This document shows, in pieces, positions 4,496 to 48,710 of a DNA stretch of 48,921 bases. The stretch lies in contig JAVJVK010000012.1 of NCBI GenBank assembly GCA_040221175.1, positions 1 to 48,921 on the forward strand. Reading direction: 5' to 3'. The notes beneath the pieces are model-generated. The model made no database searches, was not told where the DNA came from, and was given only the letters and a program-made list of their open reading frames with translations. Within the stretch, counting starts at the first letter, position 1. The number at the start of each line of letters is the position of its first letter. The position numbers were made by a program, and so were the translations under genes. Source of the DNA: Phycisphaerales bacterium. GTDB taxonomy: Bacteria > Planctomycetota > Phycisphaerae > Phycisphaerales > UBA1924.

Positions 4496-5835
4496 TTTGA
4501 GGCCTCCGGTTGCGACGGTGGCTCGAGCACCTGCGACGAGAGTCGGAGCAGCACGCGATCGATGGTGCGCCCGGAGACCACTTCGACCTCGACGTGCACG
4601 GGTCCGAAGTCGACCTGATCACCCGGCTCGGCCAGGCGTCCGAGCGAAGCCATGACGGCTCCGGCGATCGTCACGGCCTCGGGCGGCAGGTCGAAGTCCT
4701 GGGCGCGATGCTCGGTGAACAGGCGAGCCAGTTCGCTGACGGGCATGCGTCCGGGCACGCTCCAGCAGCCCAGGCCAACCATGATGATGCCGTCGGCCCC
4801 GGTCTCGCCGTGTTCGATGGGCATGCCGACCAACCCGCGCAACAGGTCGGCAAAGTCGAGCAGTCCGGTGCTCTCGCCATGCTCGTCGACGCACACTGCG
4901 GTGCGTGCCTTGCGTTCTCGAAGCTGGTTGAGCACGCGGTCGAGCCTGGCGTTCTCGGGCACATAGATGGGCTTCTCGAGCATGGGTCGGCCGCGTGCGA
5001 GGGTCGCCTTGACGTCGAGGATGCGCGTGATCGTGGCGCCGCGATCATCGAATACCGGCAGGCGATGGGCGCCGGTGCGATGCACGAACTGCACGAGGTC
5101 GCCGATGGGCATGTGCGGCGACACCGCGGGCAGGTCGAGTCGCGGCGTCATTGCCACGCGGGCCCGGACGTTGCTCAACCCGACGACGCCCTCGAGCAAT
5201 TCCTGCTCGTGGTCGTCGATCGTGCCGCCGTGTGCGCCTGCCCGGATGAGCGTGCGGATCGCCGACGCATCGTGGGGCGTGTAGATAGGCGCCAAGTGGA
5301 TCAATCGTGAGAGCGGCGCCACGACGAGGGCGTCGATGGCCATCAACAGGCCGCCAAGTGCAACGCTGACCGACATGAGCATGGGCGCTGCCAGGCGCGC
5401 CCAGCGCGTGCGGAACGTGTCGGCCGCGAGCTTCGCGAGGATCTCACCGAAGAGGATGATCGAGACCAGGGGCAACACCGCCGCGAGCACGCCGAGCAGC
5501 GGCGATCGCGTGGTCTGGAGCAGCAGCGCCGCGGCTGCGAAGTACAGCACGTTCACCACCATGTTGAGCAGCAGAACGCAAATGAGGAGGCGTCGTGGCT
5601 TGGCCAGCAGGTCGTCGATCGTCTTGGCCGCCTTGGGCGTGTGACGGCGCAACGCCACGCGCTCGCCGTGGGTCAGGCCGAACAGGGCGGTTTCGCTGCC
5701 CGAGGCGGCGGCCGAGCCGACCAGCAATACGGCCATCAGGGCGATGAGCCCGATGGCAAGGCTGCTCCCGCCTTCGGCGGCGGCTTGCAGGCCTTGGGTC
5801 ATCGACTCGGTCGAGGTATCGGTGCTGGGCGTCAT
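4492..5835 (-). CDS. hemolysin-C/CorC-family protein: DUF21, two CBS, CorC_HlyC domain
   Basis: 447 residues, full family length. DUF21 membrane domain at about 25-200 (ASGSETALFGLTHGER; FGEILAKLAADTFRTRWA), then the conserved hinge with a (DDHEQELLEGVVGLSN) and MTPR just before the first CBS motif, the second CBS (AVCVDEHGESTGLLDFADLL), and a C-terminal CorC_HlyC domain (FDLPPEAVTIAGAVMASLGRLAEPGD). The family is linked to Mg2+/Co2+ homeostasis at the inner membrane. The start is the ATG at 5835, 17 bases after the stop of the HscB-like gene, so they are probably cotranscribed. The downstream paralogue overlaps by 4 bases. Confidence 0.9.
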   Translation of the reverse strand: MTPSTDTSTESMTQGLQAAAEGGSSLAIGLIALMAVLLVGSAAASGSETALFGLTHGERVALRRHTPKAAKTIDDLLAKPRRLLICVLLLNMVVNVLYFAAAALLLQTTRSPLLGVLAAVLPLVSIILFGEILAKLAADTFRTRWARLAAPMLMSVSVALGGLLMAIDALVVAPLSRLIHLAPIYTPHDASAIRTLIRAGAHGGTIDDHEQELLEGVVGLSNVRARVAMTPRLDLPAVSPHMPIGDLVQFVHRTGAHRLPVFDDRGATITRILDVKATLARGRPMLEKPIYVPENARLDRVLNQLRERKARTAVCVDEHGESTGLLDFADLLRGLVGMPIEHGETGADGIIMVGLGCWSVPGRMPVSELARLFTEHRAQDFDLPPEAVTIAGAVMASLGRLAEPGDQVDFGPVHVEVEVVSGRTIDRVLLRLSSQVLEPPSQPEASK

Positions 5836-5852
5836 GGGTCGGCCTGCGCGAA

Positions 5853-6362
5853 TCAGGCGTCCGGTGCGTGCGCGGGCACGCCCACCTGCTCAAGCATTCG
5901 CTCGAAGTATCGCCATTGCTGGAGCACCCCGGCGGCCGTTGACGCACGCATCGGGTCGAGCGGTTCGCTACCCGAGCCGAGCAGCGTGCCCAATTCGGCC
6001 GCGAGATCGGCCCTCCGGTCCGTCGCCCATTGGCGCCAGCGCGCCACGGCGTCCTCGTCGCCGGAGGCCACGGCTTCTTCGGCTTCCTGGCGGACCTCCA
6101 GGATCTCGGCCAGGAAGTCCGGCGAAAGAGGTGGCGCCTTCGCATCGGGTGCTCGAATTGCCAGAAGGGCGCGAGCACGTCTTTCGGGGTCCAGCAGGGT
6201 CGTTCGAGCTTCGTTCAGGGTCGAAGGATCTGCGTCGCCGTCGCCCGCGGCAAGATCCGGATGGGCCTTGGCAATGCGTGCGAGGTACGCCTGTTCGATT
6301 TTTGATCGGTCTAGATCGAAGCGTGCGGGCAAGCCGAGAATGTCAAACGGGCTGCTTGGCAT
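5853..6362 (-). CDS. hscB: HscB-like J-domain co-chaperone
   Basis: 169 residues, typical for HscB (about 170). The N-terminal J-domain contains the HPD tripeptide (H34-P35-D36), preceded by the HscB-style opening F-D-I-L-G-L-P and followed by LNEARTTLLDPERRARALL. A C-terminal helical part (FLAEILEVRQEAEEA) matches the three-helix bundle that binds IscU. The expected role is delivery of the Fe-S scaffold to an HscA/DnaK chaperone. No isc genes lie next to it. It is first in a minus-strand operon with the DUF21/CBS pair and the thioredoxin. The assignment to HscB rather than another short J-protein rests on these motifs only. Confidence 0.75.
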   Translation of the reverse strand: MPSSPFDILGLPARFDLDRSKIEQAYLARIAKAHPDLAAGDGDADPSTLNEARTTLLDPERRARALLAIRAPDAKAPPLSPDFLAEILEVRQEAEEAVASGDEDAVARWRQWATDRRADLAAELGTLLGSGSEPLDPMRASTAAGVLQQWRYFERMLEQVGVPAHAPDA

Positions 6363-6461
6363 GGAGCAGACAGGATAGGCCGGGCTCGATTTGGGGTTGA
6401 CCCGTCGGCTCGAATCGGCGAGGATGACCCCGGCGGAGGGGCCGGTATCGCGGGGACCGGC

Positions 6462-7184
6462 ATGGAATGGAGGCCGACCTTGCCATCACATCACGTCGGG
6501 ATCGTGGCCGTGAGCCCCGAGGGCGCCGTCCTTACGTACCGCCAGTTCCACCGCCACGCCACGCGGATGACCATGCCCGAGGACCGTCCGTGCGTCACCA
6601 TGCACGGCGAGCCCTTCGACCAGTATCTTCGCGCCATCGGCGAACAGGACTGGGAATCTGTGGGCGTCTTATTGAGGCGGTCTGCCGAGTGTCTGGCGGC
6701 GGCGGGGGCCCAGTTCTGCCTGACGCCCGACCACGTGGTGCAGCACGCCGTGCAGATGGCCGAGACAGGCTGCCCGATTCCCTGGCTGACAATGGCATCG
6801 CTGTTGGCTGATCAGGTTGGCCAGGATGGCCGTCAGAGCGTCGGAATCCTCGGCACGCGGATGGTCACCAACGGATCGGCCTACCAGACGCACCTGGGTT
6901 TGCGGGGCGTCAAGGTCATGACGCCCAGCCCGGAAGAGGTCGACGAGGTCGACTCGATCATCTTTCAGGAACTCGTGCTGGGTGAGACGCGTGAGGCCTC
7001 CCGGCGACGGCTGGGCGAGATCATCGGTCGCCTGGCCGACCGCGGTGCTGAAGCCATCGTGATGGGCTCCAGCGAGGTTCCCCTGCTGCTTTCGAGCTCG
7101 AATTGCCCGCTGCCGCTGTACGACCCGGGCGAAATCCAGGTCGTCACGGCGGTCCAAAGGGCCGTGGGACCTACGGCGGCCTAG
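6462..7184 (+). CDS. Asp/Glu racemase-fold protein lacking both catalytic cysteines
   Basis: 240 residues. The layout follows amino-acid/aspartate racemases: an N-terminal GIVAVSPEGA strand, then the first catalytic loop near residues 86-92, the GILGTRMV strand at about 128-135, and the second catalytic loop near 200-210. In the family the loops read roughly ICPDNT and LGCTEIPLL; here they read C-L-T-P-D-H-V (Thr88 where Cys is expected, though Cys86 is two residues away) and M-G-S-S-E-V-P-L-L (Ser203 replaces Cys). A two-base racemase mechanism therefore looks impossible. It may be a binding protein or use another chemistry. It is transcribed divergently from the hscB-like gene across 99 bases; a weak TTGACC-N18-AGGATG promoter lies at 6397-6426. 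Confidence 0.75.
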   Translation: MEWRPTLPSHHVGIVAVSPEGAVLTYRQFHRHATRMTMPEDRPCVTMHGEPFDQYLRAIGEQDWESVGVLLRRSAECLAAAGAQFCLTPDHVVQHAVQMAETGCPIPWLTMASLLADQVGQDGRQSVGILGTRMVTNGSAYQTHLGLRGVKVMTPSPEEVDEVDSIIFQELVLGETREASRRRLGEIIGRLADRGAEAIVMGSSEVPLLLSSSNCPLPLYDPGEIQVVTAVQRAVGPTAA

Positions 7185-38712: not shown

Positions 38713-40431
38713 TCAGGGAAGCGAGCGGTCCAACTGCCGACGAAGGCGATCGGCTTCTCGATCTCGCCCTGCCTCGCGGAGCAATGCCTCGTATCGCTCG
38801 CCGACGGCCATGAAGGCGCTGGCGCGAACCTCGGCTTCCTGCGACGACCGCGGCGCTCGCAGGCGGCGGTGGGTCCGCCCGTACAGGCCCAGGAGTTCAT
38901 CGCCCCGGCCGTCCTGGGTCAGCATGGTGTCCAGCCGGGCGAGGGCGTCGAGGGCCAGGGGGGTCTCGTCGGCCTGTCGGTTTACCAGGTCCTCGTAGAT
39001 CTTCATGGCCGCGGCCCGGTCACCCTGGGCAAGCGTCAGGTCGCCCATGGCAAGCTGTGCCGCCGCATAGCTGATCGCATCGCGACGATTCGTGAGCGAG
39101 AACCACTCAAGCAACTCGGCCTTGCCGCTGTCCATCCGTTGGATTGCGTCCAGGGCAAGCTGCGTGGCAAACACCGGAGATCGTTGGCCGAGGCGGCCGA
39201 GGAATTCGGTGAGGACGCGTTGCGGGCCGTCGGGCTCGTCCGAAGCCTGCTCGAGCCGGATCGCCAGCGAGTGTCGCCACGCCTCGGGGAAGCCGCCACT
39301 TGCTTCGATCGACGCGTTGACCAGGGACACGCGCGTGGATTCGTCCGCAAGCCTTGCCGCTTTGAGGAGGGCCCATGCGGTGCGAACTTGGGCCGGACCG
39401 TCCTGCGCGAGGTCGGCAATCAGCAGCAGTTCGGCAATCGCCATGTGTTCGCCCGTAACGGCGTGGCGGGTGGTGCCGAGCGCAAGACCGGGGTGCTCGG
39501 GTAATGCCTGCAGGTTCCATCGATAGCCGCGACGGTCTCGTTCGAGGAACACTGGCGCCGTGAATCGCTCGTCGCCTCGATGGCCCGTGGCCAGTGCAAC
39601 CGGATAGCCGAAAGCCTGGCCGAGTTGCTCGGCGTAGAAGCTGCGCAAGGGACCAAGGCCGCCGCGTTCGGCGATGCGGTCGAACGTGAATTCCTCGGGC
39701 GGCAGTGCCGGCTCGCCCGCCAGCAGCCCCGCCTGCTTATACGGAACGCGACCGTACAACTCGGCTGGGTCCGTCTGGCGACGCTCCTGGATGAAGGTCA
39801 GCAGGCCTTCGCCGGTCATCGCGATGTCTGTTAAGTAGACCAGGACTTCGGCTGGCAAGTCGTCTAGGGGTAAGGCCATGACCCGTCGGTCCTGATGGGC
39901 GAACACCAACGCATCGAAGACCTCCGGCGCCGCCGGCAGGATGGAACCCAGCCCGGGATACTCGTGTGGTCGATCGAGCACGACGCACACCGCGGCTGCG
40001 AGATCCGGATACGTCGCCATGGCCTCGGGCTGGCCCGTTGCGATGGCGTGGGCGATCGTGGCGACCGTGGCGTCATCGTTCGAATCGGTGAACACTCGGA
40101 CCAGCGCCCCCATGAACTCGGGATGGCTCGCCCAGACTTCCAGCATCAGGCTTCGAGCAGACGCGGGGAGCGGCGCGATGAGCTGCACGATCGCGTGATG
40201 CTCGACGGCGTCGACCAGGCTGGCCACTTCGATCGACGGCCACGCATTGACGGCGGCATCGCGAGCCCGCTGGGCCTCGGCCTGAGCGAGTTGAGGGTCA
40301 TCCGCCAGTTGCTCGATGGCCACCGACGCCGGACTCTGTGGAGCATCCTGGGCCGTGCTGAGCGGGGGAAGCCACAACGCCAGCGTCATGGCCACGATGC
40401 CGGATTTGGTTGCCTTGTTCATGCGGGGCAT
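38713..40431 (-). CDS. exported helical-repeat protein with a transglutaminase-like segment
   Basis: 572 residues from the ATG at 40431; 40422 and 40467 are alternative starts. Signal peptide ends near TAQ. Long alpha-helical stretches suggest TPR-like repeats, clearest near the C-terminus (AISYAAAQLAMGDLTLAQGDRAAAMKIYEDLVNRQ). A central segment (RIAERGGLGPLRSFYAEQLGQAFGYPVALATGHRGDE) resembles the planctomycete module G-G-V-C-G-P-R-x-x-F-x-x-x-x-x-x-A-F-G-x-P, related to transglutaminases, but the Cys is missing (GGLGPLRS), so it would be inactive. It is the last gene of the BLUF-to-nuoB run, 57 bases after nuoB. This family link is tentative. Confidence 0.7.
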   Translation of the reverse strand: MPRMNKATKSGIVAMTLALWLPPLSTAQDAPQSPASVAIEQLADDPQLAQAEAQRARDAAVNAWPSIEVASLVDAVEHHAIVQLIAPLPASARSLMLEVWASHPEFMGALVRVFTDSNDDATVATIAHAIATGQPEAMATYPDLAAAVCVVLDRPHEYPGLGSILPAAPEVFDALVFAHQDRRVMALPLDDLPAEVLVYLTDIAMTGEGLLTFIQERRQTDPAELYGRVPYKQAGLLAGEPALPPEEFTFDRIAERGGLGPLRSFYAEQLGQAFGYPVALATGHRGDERFTAPVFLERDRRGYRWNLQALPEHPGLALGTTRHAVTGEHMAIAELLLIADLAQDGPAQVRTAWALLKAARLADESTRVSLVNASIEASGGFPEAWRHSLAIRLEQASDEPDGPQRVLTEFLGRLGQRSPVFATQLALDAIQRMDSGKAELLEWFSLTNRRDAISYAAAQLAMGDLTLAQGDRAAAMKIYEDLVNRQADETPLALDALARLDTMLTQDGRGDELLGLYGRTHRRLRAPRSSQEAEVRASAFMAVGERYEALLREAGRDREADRLRRQLDRSLP

Positions 40432-40488
40432 TGTTTCACCCCAGAGCACCGAAATCGGCCCGAGCAAGGATTTGGGATGCGGAGGCGC

Positions 40489-41106: not shown

Positions 41107-41334
41107 CTAGGGCCGCTGCCGCTCGCTTGCGGGGCGGGCATCCCTGCGTTCGCGCCGGCTTTCGGTGGTCATGAAGTCGAGCGGGCGATGTTCGTACTCG
41201 CTACGGAGCTTGGTGCTATCGGCGCCGATGCCCCGGGAACTCACTACCTTGCGGTAGCAGCCCCCCGCGGCGCATGCTAAAACCCCGGTGGCGCTTGCTA
41301 CCAGAAGAACCCGGCTGATGCGTGTCCGATTCAT
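41107..41334 (-). CDS. small basic lipoprotein, 75 aa
   Basis: The ATG overlaps the BrkB stop (ATGA). Signal with a lipobox in A-A-G-G-C (Cys26), then a short Arg/Glu-rich tail (YEHRPLDFMTTESRRERRDARP). A longer frame upstream lies inside the BrkB gene and is not counted. Unknown function; the coupling suggests a partner of the BrkB protein. Confidence 0.65.
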   Translation of the reverse strand: MNRTRISRVLLVASATGVLACAAGGCYRKVVSSRGIGADSTKLRSEYEHRPLDFMTTESRRERRDARPASERQRP

Positions 41335-42866
41335 TCGTTGCCACGTCCTTCGTCCCGATTCGGTACGTCCTCCGAGGCCGTCGGGTTTTCGGGCTTCGCA
41401 CTCAGGCGTGATTGTAGGGTGGCCTCCCCGAGCGACTCGACGGCCGTCTTGGAGAGTTGCGAAGCCGCCGAGCCCTCGCGAGCCGCGGTGGGAGAGGGTG
41501 CGGCCGTGGCAATATCGGCCAAGCGAATACGCTCGGCCGGACGCGAGAGCGTGTATCCACCGCCGTTGTCCAATTGCCTGACGAATCCGCCCCGTTGGAG
41601 GGCGTCGATGATGCGGGAGCATTGGTCGTTGGCCAGGGCCAGTTCGTCGGCCACGTCCGAGGTTCGCGCGCCCTGCCCCTCCGCGAATCGCCGGCCGATG
41701 ACGGTGGCTGCGTCGATGAGTACGCCCGGGCCGGCGAGCATCAAGGCCGGATCGTCGGAATCTTCATCCTGCTCGATGCCGTCTTCGAGCATCTGCACGC
41801 CATAGGCGACCTGAAGACCAAAGAGGATGATGAGCCAGGTCAGGAAGACCCACAGCATGAAGATCGGGATGAGCGCCAGCGAGCCGTAGAGCGTCGCGTA
41901 CGTGGAATTGGTGGAGTACCCGAGGTACTGCGTGAATCCCCACTTGGCCGCTTCCCACCCGATCGCCGCCACGGTGGCGCCGGCCAGGGTTGGTCGCAGC
42001 CGCAGCCGTCGATTGGGGAGGATCATGTACGCCAGCGAAAGCAGGCCGGTGCTGATGACGACGGTGACGAGGAAGCCGGCGGCCCCGACGATGAACCGGC
42101 CGAAGGCGTCGCCCTCGCCGGCCATGTTCTTGACCCATTCTCGGAATTGCACGCCGACGAGAAACGTGAGGGCGATGAGGATGGCGCCCAGCGTCATGAG
42201 TGTCCAATACTGGGTGATCCGTCTGACCCAACTGCGGCCCGACTTGGCTCGACAGATCTGGTTGAAGCAGCGTTCGACTTCGACCACCATGGCAAGCGCA
42301 GCGTAGATCAGGACGAGGCCGCCGATGAGCCCGATGGCGTCGAATCGCACCGAACCGAATCGCTCGACCCAGCCATCGATCAGTTGATCAAGGCTTTCGG
42401 GCGTGGGGTTCATCGTTTCGGGAGGGTTGAGCAGGCCCGTGCCGTTTTCTTCTACTTCCTCGGGCGTGCCGACCATCGCCATCGCCGCGTGCATGCGGAG
42501 CGACGGGCTCAGGGGCCAGGGCATCGAAAGAACGCCGCCGGCAGAAGGATTGATCGGTGCGTCGTCCGATGGATCATTTGGGGTGGTCTGGCCAACGTCG
42601 GATTGGATCACCTCGGCGATGCCCGTGAACTGGACGGCCTGCTCCATCAGACGCTTCAGGTCGTCGTCGCCCACGAACATGCGCACGATGACCAGCGCCA
42701 CGATGCTGATCGGAAGCAGGCCGAAGAGCGTGCGATACGCCAACGCGGCGGCCATCTGGGGCAGCCGGGTTCGCAACAAAGACCGCAGGGCCATGCGGCT
42801 GACGTGTGCGGCGCGGCCCATCTCCTTGCTGCTGGGCAGCCTCAGCCAGTCCGGCCATCGTGCCAT
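41331..42866 (-). CDS. YihY/BrkB-family membrane protein with C-terminal HTH
   Basis: 511 residues, longer than the usual 290-440. The BrkB membrane region: first helix RLPQMAAALAYRTLFGLLPISIVALVI, then IGLIGGLVLIYAALAMVVEVERCFNQIC, WTLMTLGAILIALTFLVG, AAGFLVTVVISTGLLSLAYMILPNRRLRLRPTLAGATVAAIGWEAAKWGFTQYL, and YATLYGSLALIPIFMLWVFLTWLIILFG. Between helices 1 and 2 a long extracytoplasmic loop is inserted (about 75-170). The C-terminal part (about 385-460) looks like a winged helix (SDVADELALANDQCSRIIDALQRGGFVRQ), as in some BrkB proteins. The gene starts 3 bases after the pseudouridine synthase stop. Confidence 0.87.
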   Translation of the reverse strand: MARWPDWLRLPSSKEMGRAAHVSRMALRSLLRTRLPQMAAALAYRTLFGLLPISIVALVIVRMFVGDDDLKRLMEQAVQFTGIAEVIQSDVGQTTPNDPSDDAPINPSAGGVLSMPWPLSPSLRMHAAMAMVGTPEEVEENGTGLLNPPETMNPTPESLDQLIDGWVERFGSVRFDAIGLIGGLVLIYAALAMVVEVERCFNQICRAKSGRSWVRRITQYWTLMTLGAILIALTFLVGVQFREWVKNMAGEGDAFGRFIVGAAGFLVTVVISTGLLSLAYMILPNRRLRLRPTLAGATVAAIGWEAAKWGFTQYLGYSTNSTYATLYGSLALIPIFMLWVFLTWLIILFGLQVAYGVQMLEDGIEQDEDSDDPALMLAGPGVLIDAATVIGRRFAEGQGARTSDVADELALANDQCSRIIDALQRGGFVRQLDNGGGYTLSRPAERIRLADIATAAPSPTAAREGSAASQLSKTAVESLGEATLQSRLSAKPENPTASEDVPNRDEGRGNE

Positions 42867-42869
42867 CGC

Positions 42870-43778
42870 CTAGGACCTCCCAGAGCCGCCGTGCCTGGCG
42901 GGGCCGTTGCGTGATTCATCGCGTTGGAGTCCCACGGCTTTCTTCAGGGCCTTCAATTCGCTCGGCCGAATGTCTCGCCAGTGCCCGCGACGAAGGTCGG
43001 CCAGTTTCACCGGGCCGATGGCGACCCGCTCGAGCTTGCGCACGGGGCAACCAACGCGTGCCAGCACGCGGCGGACCTCGCGGTTGCGACCCTCGGTCAG
43101 CGTGATCTCGAGGTGGGCCCGGTCTCGCAGTTGCTTCGTAACGGTCACCCGGACGGCCTGCGTTCGCTCGGCGCCCTCCGTCCTGCCGTGGGTTCGATGG
43201 GCGAGCACGACCCCGCGTTCGAGGTCGGCCAGGCTCTCCTTGGTCATTACGCCGCTGACGATGGCGCGATAGGTCTTGGGGATTTCGTAGCGGGGGTGGG
43301 CCAGGCGATTGGCCAGTTCTCCGTCATTCGTGAGAATGAGCAGGCCGGTCGTGTCGTAGTCGAGGCGACCCACGGGAAACAGCCTGGGAGCCAGGGGGTG
43401 CTGCACGATGTCGAGCACCGTCCGGCGGTCCATGCCGGGTTCGTCCGCGGCGGTGGTCAGCGTGGCCGTCGGCTTGTTGAGCAGGACCGTGACGTTTGCC
43501 TCGGGCTGGCGGATGCGGCGCCCGTTGACGCGGATGTCGTCGCGGGCGGGGTCCGCGAAGGCGGGTAGATCGGTCACGATCTGGCCGTTGACCTCGACGT
43601 GTCCTTCCCGAATGAGTTGTTCGCAGGCACGCCTGCTGGCAACGCCGGCATCGGCAAGCACGCGGTGCAGGCGGTCCTGCCCGCCGGATCGAAGGCTGTT
43701 CTTGGGTGGCGGCACGGTGGATTGTACGCGCAGGCCGCGGCCGTACGTCGGCGTCACACCGGGGTGACGTCCGACCAT
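42870..43778 (-). CDS. RsuA/RluB-family rRNA pseudouridine synthase
   Basis: 302 residues from the ATG at 43778, overlapping the BLUF gene by 25 bases; a later start within the first 25 residues is possible. An N-terminal S4 domain (RLHRVLADAGVASRRACEQLIREGHVEVNGQIV) binds RNA. The catalytic motif G-R-L-D-Y-D-T-T-G-L-L holds the Asp nucleophile, and the conserved late motif EGRNREVRRVLARVGCPVRKLERVAIGPVKL is complete. It changes a uridine of 16S or 23S rRNA to pseudouridine; RluB-like by length and motifs, exact site unknown. Confidence 0.9.
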   Translation of the reverse strand: MVGRHPGVTPTYGRGLRVQSTVPPPKNSLRSGGQDRLHRVLADAGVASRRACEQLIREGHVEVNGQIVTDLPAFADPARDDIRVNGRRIRQPEANVTVLLNKPTATLTTAADEPGMDRRTVLDIVQHPLAPRLFPVGRLDYDTTGLLILTNDGELANRLAHPRYEIPKTYRAIVSGVMTKESLADLERGVVLAHRTHGRTEGAERTQAVRVTVTKQLRDRAHLEITLTEGRNREVRRVLARVGCPVRKLERVAIGPVKLADLRRGHWRDIRPSELKALKKAVGLQRDESRNGPARHGGSGRS

Positions 43779-44263
43779 CCCGCCAGTTCATCGATGACCC
43801 GTCGGGCAAGAGGTGGTTCCTGATCGCTGCGTGTCTTGGAGCGGTCGGACCCCAGCACGATACGGGCCAGCGGGCTCCACCAGTTGGTCGAGGTGTCCTC
43901 TTCGTGGCTCTTCCCTTCGACGAACAGCCCGATCAGTTCGGGCATCGAGCGGGCAGCATCCGAACTAATGGCACGCATGCCGAATCGCTCGAATCGGCGC
44001 TCGCCGGTGTCTTCGGTCAGGATGTGCGTGACCGAGGCGTGCCGATGGTCTTCGCGGATGACCTCGAACAGGGGTTCGACGGCGTCCTTCGCGCCCTCGA
44101 GGACCTGGAAGAAGTACTTCTCATCGAACCACAGGCATCCGGTGATGCCGAGCTCTCGATTCTTGGTAATGGCTGGCAACACGATCCCGTCGACGATGTC
44201 CTCGTCGGTGACGTGTTCGTGCCTCTTACTGAGATATGCGAGTTGGAAAATAGGATCACCCAT
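43754..44263 (-). CDS. BLUF-domain blue-light receptor
   Basis: 169 residues. FAD-binding BLUF domain at about 5-100: flavin-interacting Tyr10 in L-A-Y-L-S-K-R, Asn35 in K-N-R-E-L-G-I-T-G, Gln53 in F-F-Q-V-L-E-G, and the late pattern V-I-R-E-D-H-R-H. All three photocycle residues are present, so it should sense blue light. No attached output domain; a charged C-terminal tail of about 60 residues. Short BLUF proteins such as cyanobacterial PixD act by binding a partner. It is first of a six-gene minus-strand run and diverges from the ANTAR regulator gene across 102 bases. Confidence 0.88.
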   Translation of the reverse strand: MGDPIFQLAYLSKRHEHVTDEDIVDGIVLPAITKNRELGITGCLWFDEKYFFQVLEGAKDAVEPLFEVIREDHRHASVTHILTEDTGERRFERFGMRAISSDAARSMPELIGLFVEGKSHEEDTSTNWWSPLARIVLGSDRSKTRSDQEPPLARRVIDELAGWSDVTPV

Positions 44264-44365
44264 TTCTTAGGGAGAGATGGTGCTCGTGTGATGCTGCCGT
44301 GATTCAAGCGGTGTACACTGGGGGGCCGCCGTTCTGTCGTGTTTGTTCGCGATGAGGTGCCTGCG

Positions 44366-45058
44366 ATGAGCCGGAAAGAATCGGAATTCAACGAAGCCGC
44401 CGTGGATGGCGCCCGTACGGCCATTGAAGGACTGAACGTCATCGTGGCACACGATCGCGAAGATACACTTCGCCAACTCATTTCGATCGTGGAGCGACGG
44501 CACACGGTTCTCTGCCATTGCGAGAGCGTGACGGGCATGCTCGAGACCGCCGCAGAGCAGCGACCCGACATGATCATTACGGGCGTCTCGTTCCGCGATG
44601 GCGACGGCATCGACACCGTCATTCGCATCGGCGCCGAACGACCGGTGCCCTCGGTCATCGTGGCTGAGCGTGGATCGCTCGACATGGTCGAGAAGGCGAT
44701 GGCTGATCACGTCATGGCCTACTTGGTCATGCCCGTGGATCCGGCGGACCTCGAGGCCGCCATGGTGGTGGCCCAGGCCCGATTCGATCAATTCCAAGAA
44801 GTCGTCAGCGAGGTCGATTCCCTTCGGCAGGCGTTGGCCGATCGAAAGGTCATCGAGCGAGCTAAGGGCGCCATCATGGCCGACCGGAAAATCGAGGAAG
44901 ACGCCGCTTTCGCCATGCTGCGCACGCGAGCGCAGAACGCGCGGATGAAGCTGATCGATGTCGCCAATGGCGTACTGGAGCACGGCCCCGGCTTCGTACC
45001 CGAGCGCACCGGATCCATCGGCGGGGCGCTCGGCCGACCGGATACCGATTCGGCGTGA
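44366..45058 (+). CDS. response-regulator-like protein with degenerate receiver and ANTAR RNA-binding domain
   Basis: 230 residues from the ATG at 44366 (GAGG at about 9 bases); an upstream GTG at 44339 is less likely. A receiver fold spans about 22-135 (NVIVAHDREDTLRQLI ... RPDMIITGVSFRDGDGIDTV ... YLVMPVDPADLEAAM). The position of the phospho-Asp holds Thr72 in I-I-T-G-V, and the conserved Lys of K-P is Met122 in V-M-P. The receiver therefore cannot work by phosphorylation in the usual way; AmiR is a known example of such a receiver. ANTAR domain at about 150-205: DSLRQALADRKVIERAKGAIM, then AFAMLRTRAQ. ANTAR binds paired hexaloop hairpins in leader RNA to block terminators. The short C-terminus is disordered. 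Confidence 0.88.
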   Translation: MSRKESEFNEAAVDGARTAIEGLNVIVAHDREDTLRQLISIVERRHTVLCHCESVTGMLETAAEQRPDMIITGVSFRDGDGIDTVIRIGAERPVPSVIVAERGSLDMVEKAMADHVMAYLVMPVDPADLEAAMVVAQARFDQFQEVVSEVDSLRQALADRKVIERAKGAIMADRKIEEDAAFAMLRTRAQNARMKLIDVANGVLEHGPGFVPERTGSIGGALGRPDTDSA

Positions 45059-46549: not shown

Positions 46550-47341
46550 TCAGCAGCCGGCGTCGAAGGCGTTCTGGAACGCCAGGAAATCGAAGAGCGT
46601 GAGGCTGCCATCGCCGTCGAAGTCGGCGCTGGTTTCGCCCGCGTCGAAGGCGTTCTGGAACGCCAGGAAGTCAAAGAGCGTGAGGTCGCCATCGCCGTCG
46701 AAGTCAGCCGGGCAGCTCGAACCGCCGCCGAACACGATGTCGTCGATCAGGATGCGCGGCAGGCTGAATTCGTCACCGAAGGTGGCGTACAGGTGCAGCT
46801 CATCGAACTCAACGCCCGAGATGGAGAGCTCGCCCAGGGCGATGTTGTCGCGGCCGCCTAGATCACTGATGGTGATCGGGTCGGCGCTGCCGACGACCTC
46901 GCCGAGTTGGATGGCGTCCAGGTGGAACTGGATACCGCCCCATGGGCCGTTCTCGTAATAAGCAATCTGCATCGACACGCTGGTCTGGTCCTCGTCAAGC
47001 ACGATGGTGGCCGAGGAGATGCGTCCGATCGACAGGTTCTCGCCGGGCACGAACGCGCTGCCGAAGGTCAGGGCGTTCACCGGGCTGCCCCACATGGGGA
47101 AGTCGTTGTAGAAGAACGTCGCGTCCTCGATGGTGACCTCATCAAACTCCTGAGGGCCAAAGGTCGAGCCATCGGGGAACACGCCCGACACCTGATTGAT
47201 GTCCTGGAAGAACATGCCGGCGTACTCGAACGTCGCGCCCTTGAAGCCCTCGGTCAGGTCCTCGAAGTCGACGGTCTGGGCGAGCGAGGCGGTGGGAGCC
47301 GCCAGAAGGGCGGCGATCATGGCATTACGGATCGTGGACAT
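46550..47341 (-). CDS. secreted protein with tandem EF-hand/dockerin-like tail ending in Gly-Cys
   Basis: 263 residues. Signal peptide ends near SLAQ (about residue 22). The body (about 23-205) is beta-rich, of a type seen in exported planctomycete proteins with a ligand-binding fold (FEDLTEGFKGATFEYAGMFF, SATIVLDEDQTSVSMQIAYY). After SSCPA come two copies of a 27-residue calcium-loop repeat, each beginning D-F-D-G-D-G-x-L-T-L-F-D-F-L-A-F-Q-N-A-F-D-A-G, and the protein ends in Gly-Cys. Such GC-ended dockerin-like tails are a sorting or anchoring signal in Phycisphaerae. A strong terminator follows. Confidence 0.87.
   Translation of the reverse strand: MSTIRNAMIAALLAAPTASLAQTVDFEDLTEGFKGATFEYAGMFFQDINQVSGVFPDGSTFGPQEFDEVTIEDATFFYNDFPMWGSPVNALTFGSAFVPGENLSIGRISSATIVLDEDQTSVSMQIAYYENGPWGGIQFHLDAIQLGEVVGSADPITISDLGGRDNIALGELSISGVEFDELHLYATFGDEFSLPRILIDDIVFGGGSSCPADFDGDGDLTLFDFLAFQNAFDAGETSADFDGDGSLTLFDFLAFQNAFDAGC
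46560..46709 (-). repeat. 81-bp tandem duplication encoding the EF-hand repeats
   Basis: Two nearly identical copies with a period of 81 bases (starts at 46560 and 46641 on the plus strand), differing at only a few positions. They encode the two calcium-loop units at the C-terminus of the dockerin-tailed protein. High DNA identity points to recent duplication or gene conversion. Confidence 0.8.
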
Positions 47342-47395: not shown

Positions 47396-48613
47396 TCAGG
47401 CCTCCAGCCAGTCTGGGGGCTCGGGCAGATCGTGTCGGATCATCACCGAGGTCGACAGCGGCGGATACGCCATGCGGACCCGGTAAAGGTCGAATTCGTC
47501 GGCTTGCCAGCCGCAGCGGTCGAAGACCGATCGGAGCAGCGCGGCATACCCGGGTGCATCGGGCGTGTGCACGCGAGACAGCCCGTTGCCAAGGCGCTGG
47601 ATCTGCTCCGGCACGCGGAGCCGATCTTGCTCATCGTGCGTGTAGGGACGCCCCAACTCACCGAAAACGCAGAGCTCTCGCTCGATGCCTCGGAAGAGGT
47701 CCTTGTGCACGAAGTGGTCGTAGATCATCGCTTCGGCCGGGGTGGTGATACCAGTGCCAAAGTGCGCGCGCTGGCCGGGTTCGATCGCAAACGCGGGCGC
47801 CAGTTCTCGGATGGTTTCGCCCGTGGTAATGGTCAGCTTGCCTGCCTGGCCGATCTGCCCGGGGAGCAGTTCGTCGATCGCTGCGCCCGAGTCCGAGACG
47901 CGTCGCTCAAGCGTCGGCAGCGGATTCGTGGTGAATTCGCCGATGACCGGGACGCCGCCGGCAGATTGCGCAGCTTCGGGATCCAGCGGCTGGCGATTGG
48001 GTACTCCGGGCTCTTCGCCATTGCCCAGCACCATGGCTTGGCCGATCATCCAGCGCGTGTCGGGCCGCGTTCGACGTAGATCAATGAGGCTGCGCACCTG
48101 CGCGACGTCGAGCCATCCACGCCGCGTGGCCGAGGGCGAAAGCACCGAGAACGCCACCATGGAGCGGGCCTGGACGCCCCAGACGTAGCTGTTGCCCTCG
48201 AAAGCACGCAGTCGCCAGCGGGTATCGATGTCTTCGCTGGGCTCGGCGACGCATGACTCGAGCAGCATGTCCATCGCCGTACGCGTACCCGCGTGCGTCT
48301 GAACCAGATCTTCGAACTTGGCCGACACGGTGCGGACGCGGTCGAGCAGGTCGGCGTCAACGCCGCGCGCCTCGGCCGAACGGACCCAGGTGTCCAGCGC
48401 CTTGGGCGAGGGCATGTAGCGAGCGGCGTAGAACGGGTCGTCGCCATAGGCGACCTTGGTGAGTTGCCAGGCAAGCTTGCGGTGGATGCCAAAGCCGTCG
48501 CAGATGTCGGTCAGGCCGATGCCCGCACCGCACTTGGACTCGATGACCCGGGCAAAGAGATCGCGGATCTCCGCCACCACGGTGGTCGTTTCGTCTTGGA
48601 ACGTTGCGGGCAT
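47396..48613 (-). CDS. HTH-type protein of unknown function, 405 aa
   Basis: The start is the ATG at 48613, directly after a promoter-like sequence; a frame from 48676 would start before that promoter. N-terminal residues 1-110 contain a helix-turn-helix-like segment (GLTDICDGFGIHRKLAWQLTKV) and further helices (FEDLVQTHAGTRTAMDMLLESC). The rest (about 120-405) has no motif I can name; it includes RGWLDVAQVRSLIDLRRTRPDTRWMIGQAMV and the C-terminal VRMAYPPLSTSVMIRHDLP. A transcriptional regulator is the best guess. A palindrome GTTTCTGAAAC lies upstream of its promoter. Confidence 0.7.
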   Translation of the reverse strand: MPATFQDETTTVVAEIRDLFARVIESKCGAGIGLTDICDGFGIHRKLAWQLTKVAYGDDPFYAARYMPSPKALDTWVRSAEARGVDADLLDRVRTVSAKFEDLVQTHAGTRTAMDMLLESCVAEPSEDIDTRWRLRAFEGNSYVWGVQARSMVAFSVLSPSATRRGWLDVAQVRSLIDLRRTRPDTRWMIGQAMVLGNGEEPGVPNRQPLDPEAAQSAGGVPVIGEFTTNPLPTLERRVSDSGAAIDELLPGQIGQAGKLTITTGETIRELAPAFAIEPGQRAHFGTGITTPAEAMIYDHFVHKDLFRGIERELCVFGELGRPYTHDEQDRLRVPEQIQRLGNGLSRVHTPDAPGYAALLRSVFDRCGWQADEFDLYRVRMAYPPLSTSVMIRHDLPEPPDWLEA

Positions 48614-48620
48614 CAGGCAC

Positions 48621-48648
48621 AGCCTACCACGGATCGGCGGTGTGTCAA
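48621..48648 (-). promoter_or_regulatory. sigma70-type promoter of the HTH-type gene
   Basis: On the minus strand TTGACA (48648-48643), 16-base spacer, TAGGCT (48626-48621), then only 7 bases before the ATG. A leaderless or nearly leaderless transcript is implied. The palindrome GTTTC-T-GAAAC (48654-48664) sits just upstream of the -35 box, where an activator or repressor could bind. Confidence 0.55.
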
Positions 48649-48710
48649 TAACAGTTTCTGAAACAATTCCCGGCAATGCTATGTTATAGGACTATGTGAC
48701 GCGGCTATGA

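Follow-up and report, generated by a model that had tools for sequence, protein, structure and literature searches.

A divergent BLUF and pseudo-receiver-ANTAR gene pair as a candidate light-controlled RNA switch in Phycisphaerales

Results

A BLUF gene and a receiver-ANTAR gene are divergent neighbours

The window analysed here is a stretch of 48,921 nt from a Phycisphaerales bacterium (contig JAVJVK010000012.1). It contains two divergent adjoining genes, which encode a stand-alone BLUF protein on the minus strand and a receiver-ANTAR protein on the plus strand. The whole genome (3.44 Mb, 20 contigs) yielded a single ANTAR and a single BLUF match at E ≤ 0.001, and these are each other's neighbours. 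An initial annotation of the window had suggested that the two proteins form a light-controlled antitermination module. The start of the ANTAR protein was taken as the ATG at 44366, from which its residues are numbered; a GTG further upstream, at 44339, is an alternative start. The locus comprises the following features.

43754..44263, minus strand: stand-alone BLUF protein of 169 amino acids, the putative sensor of the pair (Pfam BLUF, AlphaFold model, PDB matches)
43976..44248, minus strand: BLUF domain with Tyr10, Asn35, Gln53, Phe94 (at the usual Trp site) and Met96 (profile match, alignment, residue table)
43772..43810, minus strand: C-terminal helix, residues 152-164, a candidate docking helix (model and alignment)
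44264..44365, no strand: divergent intergenic region of 102 bp (sequence between the chosen start codons)
44366..45058, plus strand: pseudo-receiver-ANTAR protein of 230 amino acids (Pfam, alignment, AlphaFold model, PDB matches)
44438..44761, plus strand: receiver fold with Ala28-His29 in place of the acidic pair, Gly73 for the phospho-Asp and Met122 for the Lys (Pfam Response_reg, alignment)
44819..44974, plus strand: ANTAR RNA-binding domain (64.7 bits in the genome search; EutV contact residues transferred by alignment)

The receiver has lost its phosphorylation site and the ANTAR domain is intact

Pfam recognised both domains of the ANTAR protein, Response_reg with 41.9 bits (cut-off 30.2) and ANTAR (PF03861) with 62 bits (cut-off 27.3). 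The acidic pair of the receiver is lost and replaced by Ala28-His29. A missing phospho-Asp with Thr72 at its site had been proposed; the loss holds, but the aligned column contains Gly73, next to Thr72. Met122 occupies the Lys site, as annotated. Alignment of the orthologues described below showed Ala28, His29 and Gly73 to be invariant in 8/8 proteins, while the other seven have Glu at the Lys site. The protein falls among the aspartate-less receivers and outside the phosphorylatable receivers of two-component response regulators. Most of the other ANTAR regulators in an alignment of loci retain Asp-Asp/Glu, Asp and Lys. Partial degeneration occurs in other ANTAR groups too, with the Lys missing in L003, L017 and L022 and the Asp in L029.

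The AlphaFold model of the ANTAR protein reached a mean predicted local distance difference test (pLDDT) score of 92, and its best PDB matches were Rv1626, EutV and AmiR, in line with the three-helix fold of ANTAR domains. It shares the receiver-ANTAR architecture with EutV and Rv1626. In EutV, the RNA is touched by Arg142, Lys143, Lys147, Lys149, Glu160, Tyr164, Arg168, Asn173, Arg175 and Arg177 (PMC8934654; published systems are cited throughout from excerpts of open-access articles). Residue numbers of the two proteins were matched by counting along the alignment. Seven of these ten side chains are identical in the ANTAR protein: Arg142, Lys143, Lys149 and Glu160 correspond to Arg160, Lys161, Lys167 and Glu178, and Arg168, Asn173 and Arg175 to Arg186, Asn191 and Arg193. 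The remaining three (Lys147, Tyr164 and Arg177) have the similar counterparts Arg165, Phe182 and Lys195. The only RNA-contact counterpart that is neither identical nor similar is Gln190, at the position of Met172. The ANTAR domain, which had been described as intact, therefore keeps most of the EutV RNA-contact positions.

At three positions, all BLUF-paired ANTAR proteins (seven) and the G125 orthologue share residues that the seven non-Phycisphaerae proteins lack. Two of them are Phe182 and Gln190, at counterparts of the EutV contacts Tyr164 and Met172, and they may point to a different RNA specificity.

The pairing is conserved with the unphosphorylatable ANTAR type

We searched 163 genomes of the window's family. 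The ANTAR query matched eight of them at E < 1e-47 (G000, G001, G181, G131, G192, G194, G227 and G125), the next match being at 1.4e-20; the seven other orthologues share 44-64% identity with the query. BLUF proteins were found in 34 of the 163 genomes, with 51 matches in all. In seven of the eight genomes a BLUF gene is adjacent and divergent to the ANTAR orthologue, and searches with a profile of each protein confirmed the positions. These pairs span five genera (g1 with three species, g86, g114, g116 and g19), and their intergenic gaps measure 102-245 bp between the start codons chosen. The check proposed at the outset, conserved adjacency in related genomes, thus came out in favour of the pair.

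An evenly drawn sample of 121 genomes of the order contained ANTAR in 58, BLUF in 19 and both in 13. Among these 13, the two domains are adjacent in G000 and G001 only, both with the unphosphorylatable ANTAR type. In G031 and G047 the two share a contig but are separated by over 100 kb; in the other nine genomes the domains lie on different contigs, so that adjacency across a contig end is possible there. Since adjacency in the order sample is confined to G000 and G001, pairing goes with the unphosphorylatable ANTAR type and not with ANTAR plus BLUF generally. A search of 397 sampled genomes of the class with an alignment as query gave 43 matches at E ≤ 1e-25. G000 and G001 (below 1e-94) are the only members of the orthologue group among them; the next match was at 2.3e-37. 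In a tree of 51 ANTAR sequences from chosen loci, with identical ones removed, the eight orthologues group with low support (0.25), disturbed by the long branch L095.

G007, a sister of the window's genome, has neither a BLUF nor an ANTAR match. Here the pseudouridine synthase gene adjoins a homologue of a dockerin-like gene (window 46550-47341), the aligned parts being ~110 bp apart, and the BLUF, ANTAR and endonuclease-like genes are jointly missing from the site. In the other three genomes of the genus without ANTAR orthologue (G012, G059 and G071), other genes occupy the 1.5 kb upstream of the pseudouridine synthase gene.

The BLUF protein keeps its photocycle residues and lacks an output domain

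Pfam assigned 82 bits to the BLUF domain (PF04940; ORF 44263..43754) against a curated cut-off of 25. Tyr10, Asn35 and Gln53, which had been named as the photocycle residues of the window protein, are all present and invariant in 7/7 paired orthologues. No PAS or LOV match was found in the BLUF or the ANTAR protein (Pfam, E ≤ 0.1). The description as a protein without output domain was also borne out, as no Pfam output domain follows BLUF; the model adds a C-terminal helix. PDB matches of the BLUF model (mean pLDDT 77) included AppA, PixD and BlsA among the best. Residues 119-148 score below 50, and the blocks that cover the following helix 152-164 have mean values of 89 (151-160) and 59 (161-169). 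The sequence of this helix is partly conserved and recognisable in most of the seven paired BLUF proteins and in the proteins of G059. From model and alignment, we propose it as a candidate docking helix. The C-terminal motif is also carried by L046 and L053, the two BLUF proteins of G059.

A further feature of the paired BLUF proteins concerns the semi-conserved Trp (Trp91 of PixD), which is common in BLUF domains, although not strictly defining. It is absent, and Phe takes its place in all seven. The unpaired BLUF domains used for comparison came from the order and family searches, without identical or short pieces, and form a subset of the 51 family copies. Among these 41 distinct domains, 28 show the usual Tyr/Asn/Gln/Trp/Met set and in three the Trp site is occupied by Phe (L046 and L053 from G059, and L074). 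A profile of the paired BLUF proteins gave 153-167 bits for its own seven members, 144 and 125 for the two of G059 and at most 123 for other loci; the paired proteins are favoured by construction, because the profile was built from them. In PixD, the Trp91Phe exchange slowed dark recovery about 50-fold, and Trp91Ala left the phototactic response without significant change (PMC5899715). By analogy with the slowly recovering mutant, the paired BLUF proteins may remain in the lit state for long.

The pseudo-receiver ANTAR family extends beyond Phycisphaerae

Seven further family members come from four Verrucomicrobiales and from one Neorhodopirellula, one Rhodopirellula and one Planctomyces-labelled genome. 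They were aligned with the eight orthologues, the weakest of 14 loci (1e-4) being left out. In this 15-protein alignment, the first acidic position is Ala in 15/15 and the second His in 14/15, and the phospho-Asp site holds Gly, Ala or Ser. The stretch at helix 4-strand 5 reads DHVMAYL in 14 proteins and DHVMAFL in one. A sample of the phylum gave matches at E ≤ 1e-38 in 22 of 392 genomes, with degenerate as well as canonical receiver forms; flanks of 1.5 kb contained no BLUF save in G000 and G001 (L127 of G009 lies outside this comparison).

The ANTAR genes of G131, G194, G125 and G227 reside in clusters that contain, variously, DUF2383, DUF1328, holin-like, MscS and OmpR-type regulator genes. 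Pfam was run on nine selected proteins of G131, G194 and G227, the remaining cluster genes being judged by eye. It confirmed DUF1328 and the OmpR-type regulator in G131 and MscS in G194; the holin-like proteins stayed below the cut-off. DUF2383 genes lie near the pairs of G131 and G194. In G131, a gene for an ethylene-receptor-like ETR1_N sensor is located about 6 kb from the pair (L110 12268-12552).

Thirteen non-Phycisphaerae loci of the wider family (L115-L121 and L175-L180) were searched with a phytochrome profile; the flanks of some are short, and L117 and L118 share a contig. Four of them (L116, L117, L175 of G690 and L179 of G852) have a phytochrome gene no more than ~6 kb from the ANTAR gene, the one of L175 being a piece at the locus edge. 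The phytochrome profile was built from three Pfam-identified phytochromes of the same loci, and these make up three of the four matches. In the verrucomicrobial loci L116 and L117, a heme oxygenase gene stands alongside the phytochrome gene. The distribution hints that the pseudo-receiver ANTAR family is drawn to photoreceptors, although 9/13 loci have no phytochrome gene and there is no background rate for comparison.

Other arrangements were noted in these loci. In L120 from Rhodopirellula another pseudo-receiver gene, related to the ANTAR gene and by eye without ANTAR domain, precedes it (5303-5869 and 5866-6501). Directly upstream of and co-directional with the ANTAR genes of L117 and L116 lies a gene for a protein of 215-227 amino acids (5287-5934 and 5237-5920), which had no Pfam match at E ≤ 0.01.

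Neighbouring genes of the pair in the window

By Pfam, the window ORFs downstream of the BLUF gene include pseudouridine synthase, BrkB and nuoB genes. The initial annotation had placed BLUF at the head of this run. The genes are present, but the run is not specific to the pair, because pseudouridine synthase and BrkB stay adjacent in genomes of the genus without it: they adjoin in 6/6 other genus genomes examined, and the pair is absent from four of these. An operon meaning of the run was discarded for this reason. In the window's genus trio (G000, G001 and G181) the pair is flanked by the pseudouridine synthase and BrkB genes on one side and by an endonuclease-like gene on the other. We dropped the latter as a third component, since inspection by eye did not show it among the genes around the pairs of other genera.

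Within the intergenic region, the sequence TACACT (44314-44319) looks by eye like a -10 element and is a candidate promoter element of the ANTAR gene. The BrkB-type membrane protein (41331-42866) carries an Rrf2-like C-terminal stretch that scores 29.4 bits and barely misses the Pfam threshold of 30. Two long ORFs at 47396-48676 and 38713-40467 gave no Pfam match at E ≤ 0.1.

Discussion

A two-protein switch as the favoured mechanism

Our favoured reading, held with moderate confidence, is that the products of the two genes act together as an RNA switch under light control. Blue light would be sensed by the BLUF protein with flavin adenine dinucleotide, and the signal would pass to the pseudo-receiver of its partner by direct contact, the phosphorylation site being absent. 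This contact would decide whether the ANTAR domains dimerise and bind leader RNA, and RNA binding would in turn act on target mRNAs through antitermination or at translation. If AmiC-AmiR, NasS-NasT and PixD-PixE are a guide, the ANTAR protein is probably held in a complex in the dark and set free by light. The proposal takes up what is observed at the locus, namely the domains of both proteins, the lost phospho-site, the retained RNA-contact positions, the divergent pairing and the joint absence of both genes from the sister genome.

The sensors of AmiC-AmiR and NasS-NasT respond to amides and nitrate/nitrite, respectively, and to our knowledge neither is of BLUF fold. Likewise, we know of no ANTAR domain in PixE. 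Fur is a DNA-binding repressor, unlike the ANTAR partner considered here. In both AmiC-AmiR and NasS-NasT a separate sensor protein governs an ANTAR protein, NasS holding and releasing NasT (PMC3795266), and AmiR lacks the phospho-Asp (PMC4395418). The latter feature is shared by the receiver described here, which has AmiR as a top fold match, and aspartate-less receivers are described as enriched among ANTAR proteins (PMC4395418); the difference lies in the flavin photoreceptor as putative sensor. The short BLUF protein PixD of Synechocystis binds the response-regulator-like PixE in darkness and frees it in the light (PMC5899715). Our pair likewise comprises a short BLUF protein and a putative response-regulator-like partner. 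However, PixE governs phototaxis, whereas the partner here has a C-terminal ANTAR domain and is not of the PixE type; moreover, PixD has Trp91 where the paired BLUF proteins have Phe. In BlsA-Fur of Acinetobacter, too, a short BLUF protein targets a gene regulator (PMC5955987), as the BLUF protein of our pair would do. EutV is driven by phosphorylation (PMC8934654, PMC3369931), the site for which is absent from the present receiver.

The initial annotation knew of no described system of this kind. For a two-protein BLUF/ANTAR system, we found no description in the open-access literature consulted on BLUF and ANTAR. The claim has to be narrowed, because the LOV-ANTAR photoreceptor PAL of Nakamurella multipartita already places an ANTAR domain under blue-light control (PMC9614035). 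PAL couples blue-light sensing to an ANTAR RNA-binding domain, as is proposed for our pair, but as one chain with a LOV domain, whereas here two proteins are involved, a BLUF sensor and a pseudo-receiver adaptor. In open-access literature on ANTAR and photoreceptors, the light-to-RNA work among the matches listed concerns LOV receptors such as PAL. By analogy, the pair combines elements established separately in NasS-NasT/AmiC-AmiR, PixD-PixE and PAL.

Points that weigh against the switch

A number of results speak against a dedicated light switch. In G125, one of the eight orthologues, the ANTAR gene has no BLUF neighbour; its divergent neighbour encodes an ETR1_N sensor (L113 3629-4597, ETR1_N 106.7 bits). 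No kinase domain was detected in this protein, because it had no other Pfam match at E ≤ 0.01. Conversely, G059 of the window's own genus has its two Phe-type BLUF proteins and no ANTAR match. The paired BLUF proteins do not form one well supported clade, as unpaired ones intermix with them. BLUF and ANTAR distances correlate at 0.67 (21 species pairs), no more than common descent could give, and seven pairs are too few for co-variation analysis. The flanks examined of verrucomicrobial, Rhodopirellula-type and other planctomycete pseudo-receiver ANTAR loci contained no BLUF gene. As this wider family occurs without BLUF, the receiver did not degenerate for the sake of BLUF. DHVMAYL, considered as a BLUF-docking site, was rejected, because relatives without BLUF carry it and the motif is not BLUF-specific.

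The scan for RNA targets belongs on the same side. ANTAR target shapes, two hairpins with hexaloops carrying A at position 1 and G at position 4, were sought as paired AnnGnn hexaloop hairpins in the window together with eight loci (L109-L114, L181 and L182 from seven genomes; L112 and L182 overlap, both G194). For the few hairpin shapes tried, matches were not in excess over shuffles, which preserve base composition in blocks and not dinucleotides. In the first run, two matches with 4-bp stems were seen vs 4.4 expected, and none with 5-bp stems vs 0.2. In the second run, two were seen with 4-bp stems (20 shuffles, mean 4.0, maximum 9) and three when one mismatch was allowed in longer stems (mean 4.1, maximum 10). 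Rfam detected a single tRNA and no other RNA family in the window.

Alternative explanations

Some of these results would also be expected if the two genes merely formed a regulon. The ANTAR protein would then control its own expression and that of BLUF, or both genes would use a common promoter region, the ANTAR input being another molecule and BLUF acting elsewhere. Such an arrangement would suit the divergent intergenic region of 102-245 bp and both exceptions, the Phe-type BLUF proteins of G059 without ANTAR match and the G125 ANTAR protein without adjoining BLUF. It accounts less well for adjacency in 7/8 genomes over five genera together with the joint absence in G007. Moreover, no kinase gene was found within ~6 kb around the pair in G181 (by eye) or by Pfam on the seven neighbouring ORFs of the window. 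We consider a shared regulon somewhat doubtful. Direct phosphorylation of the ANTAR protein, as in an ordinary two-component regulator that stands beside BLUF by chance or hitch-hiking, is very improbable: Pfam does recognise the receiver fold, and histidine kinase genes lie near some relatives, but the receiver retains neither acidic pair nor phospho-Asp nor Lys, the absence of the first two is constant in 8/8, and adjacency to BLUF recurs. A histidine kinase as input had been named as the finding that would overturn the light switch; because the loss of the phospho-site is conserved, we rejected a kinase-driven regulator.

The cluster genes of other genera suggest yet another possibility, a general stress or light-response island of the Planctomycetes-Verrucomicrobia-Chlamydiae group. 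Here the pseudo-receiver ANTAR protein would be a constitutive or ligand-gated RNA regulator of envelope-stress genes and BLUF an exchangeable sensor, photoreceptors being recruited nearby since light is one of several stresses. This is compatible with the DUF2383 genes near the pairs of G131 and G194, with the Pfam-confirmed DUF1328, OmpR-type regulator and MscS proteins, with the ETR1_N gene divergent in G125 and about 6 kb off in G131, and with phytochrome genes within ~6 kb in 4/13 other loci. In the window's genus (G000, G001 and G181), however, the pair stands beside pseudouridine synthase and endonuclease-like genes instead, and we judge the island explanation unlikely.

Significance

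For the family as a whole we tentatively raise a broader idea, on the doubtful side in our estimate. The aspartate-less receiver-ANTAR proteins of Planctomycetota and Verrucomicrobiota (Ala-His, Gly, DHVMAYL) might serve as a plug-in RNA-binding output that stand-alone sensors switch by contact. These sensors would mainly be photoreceptors, BLUF proteins in Phycisphaerae and phytochromes elsewhere, at times ETR1_N proteins, and together they would form a light-to-RNA branch that bypasses phosphotransfer. The switch itself, if true, would be a natural path over two proteins by which blue light reaches gene control at the RNA level, in a bacterial group on whose light responses we found little in the open-access literature. 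It would also provide a small optogenetic pair and show how a degenerate receiver can be kept as a contact module.

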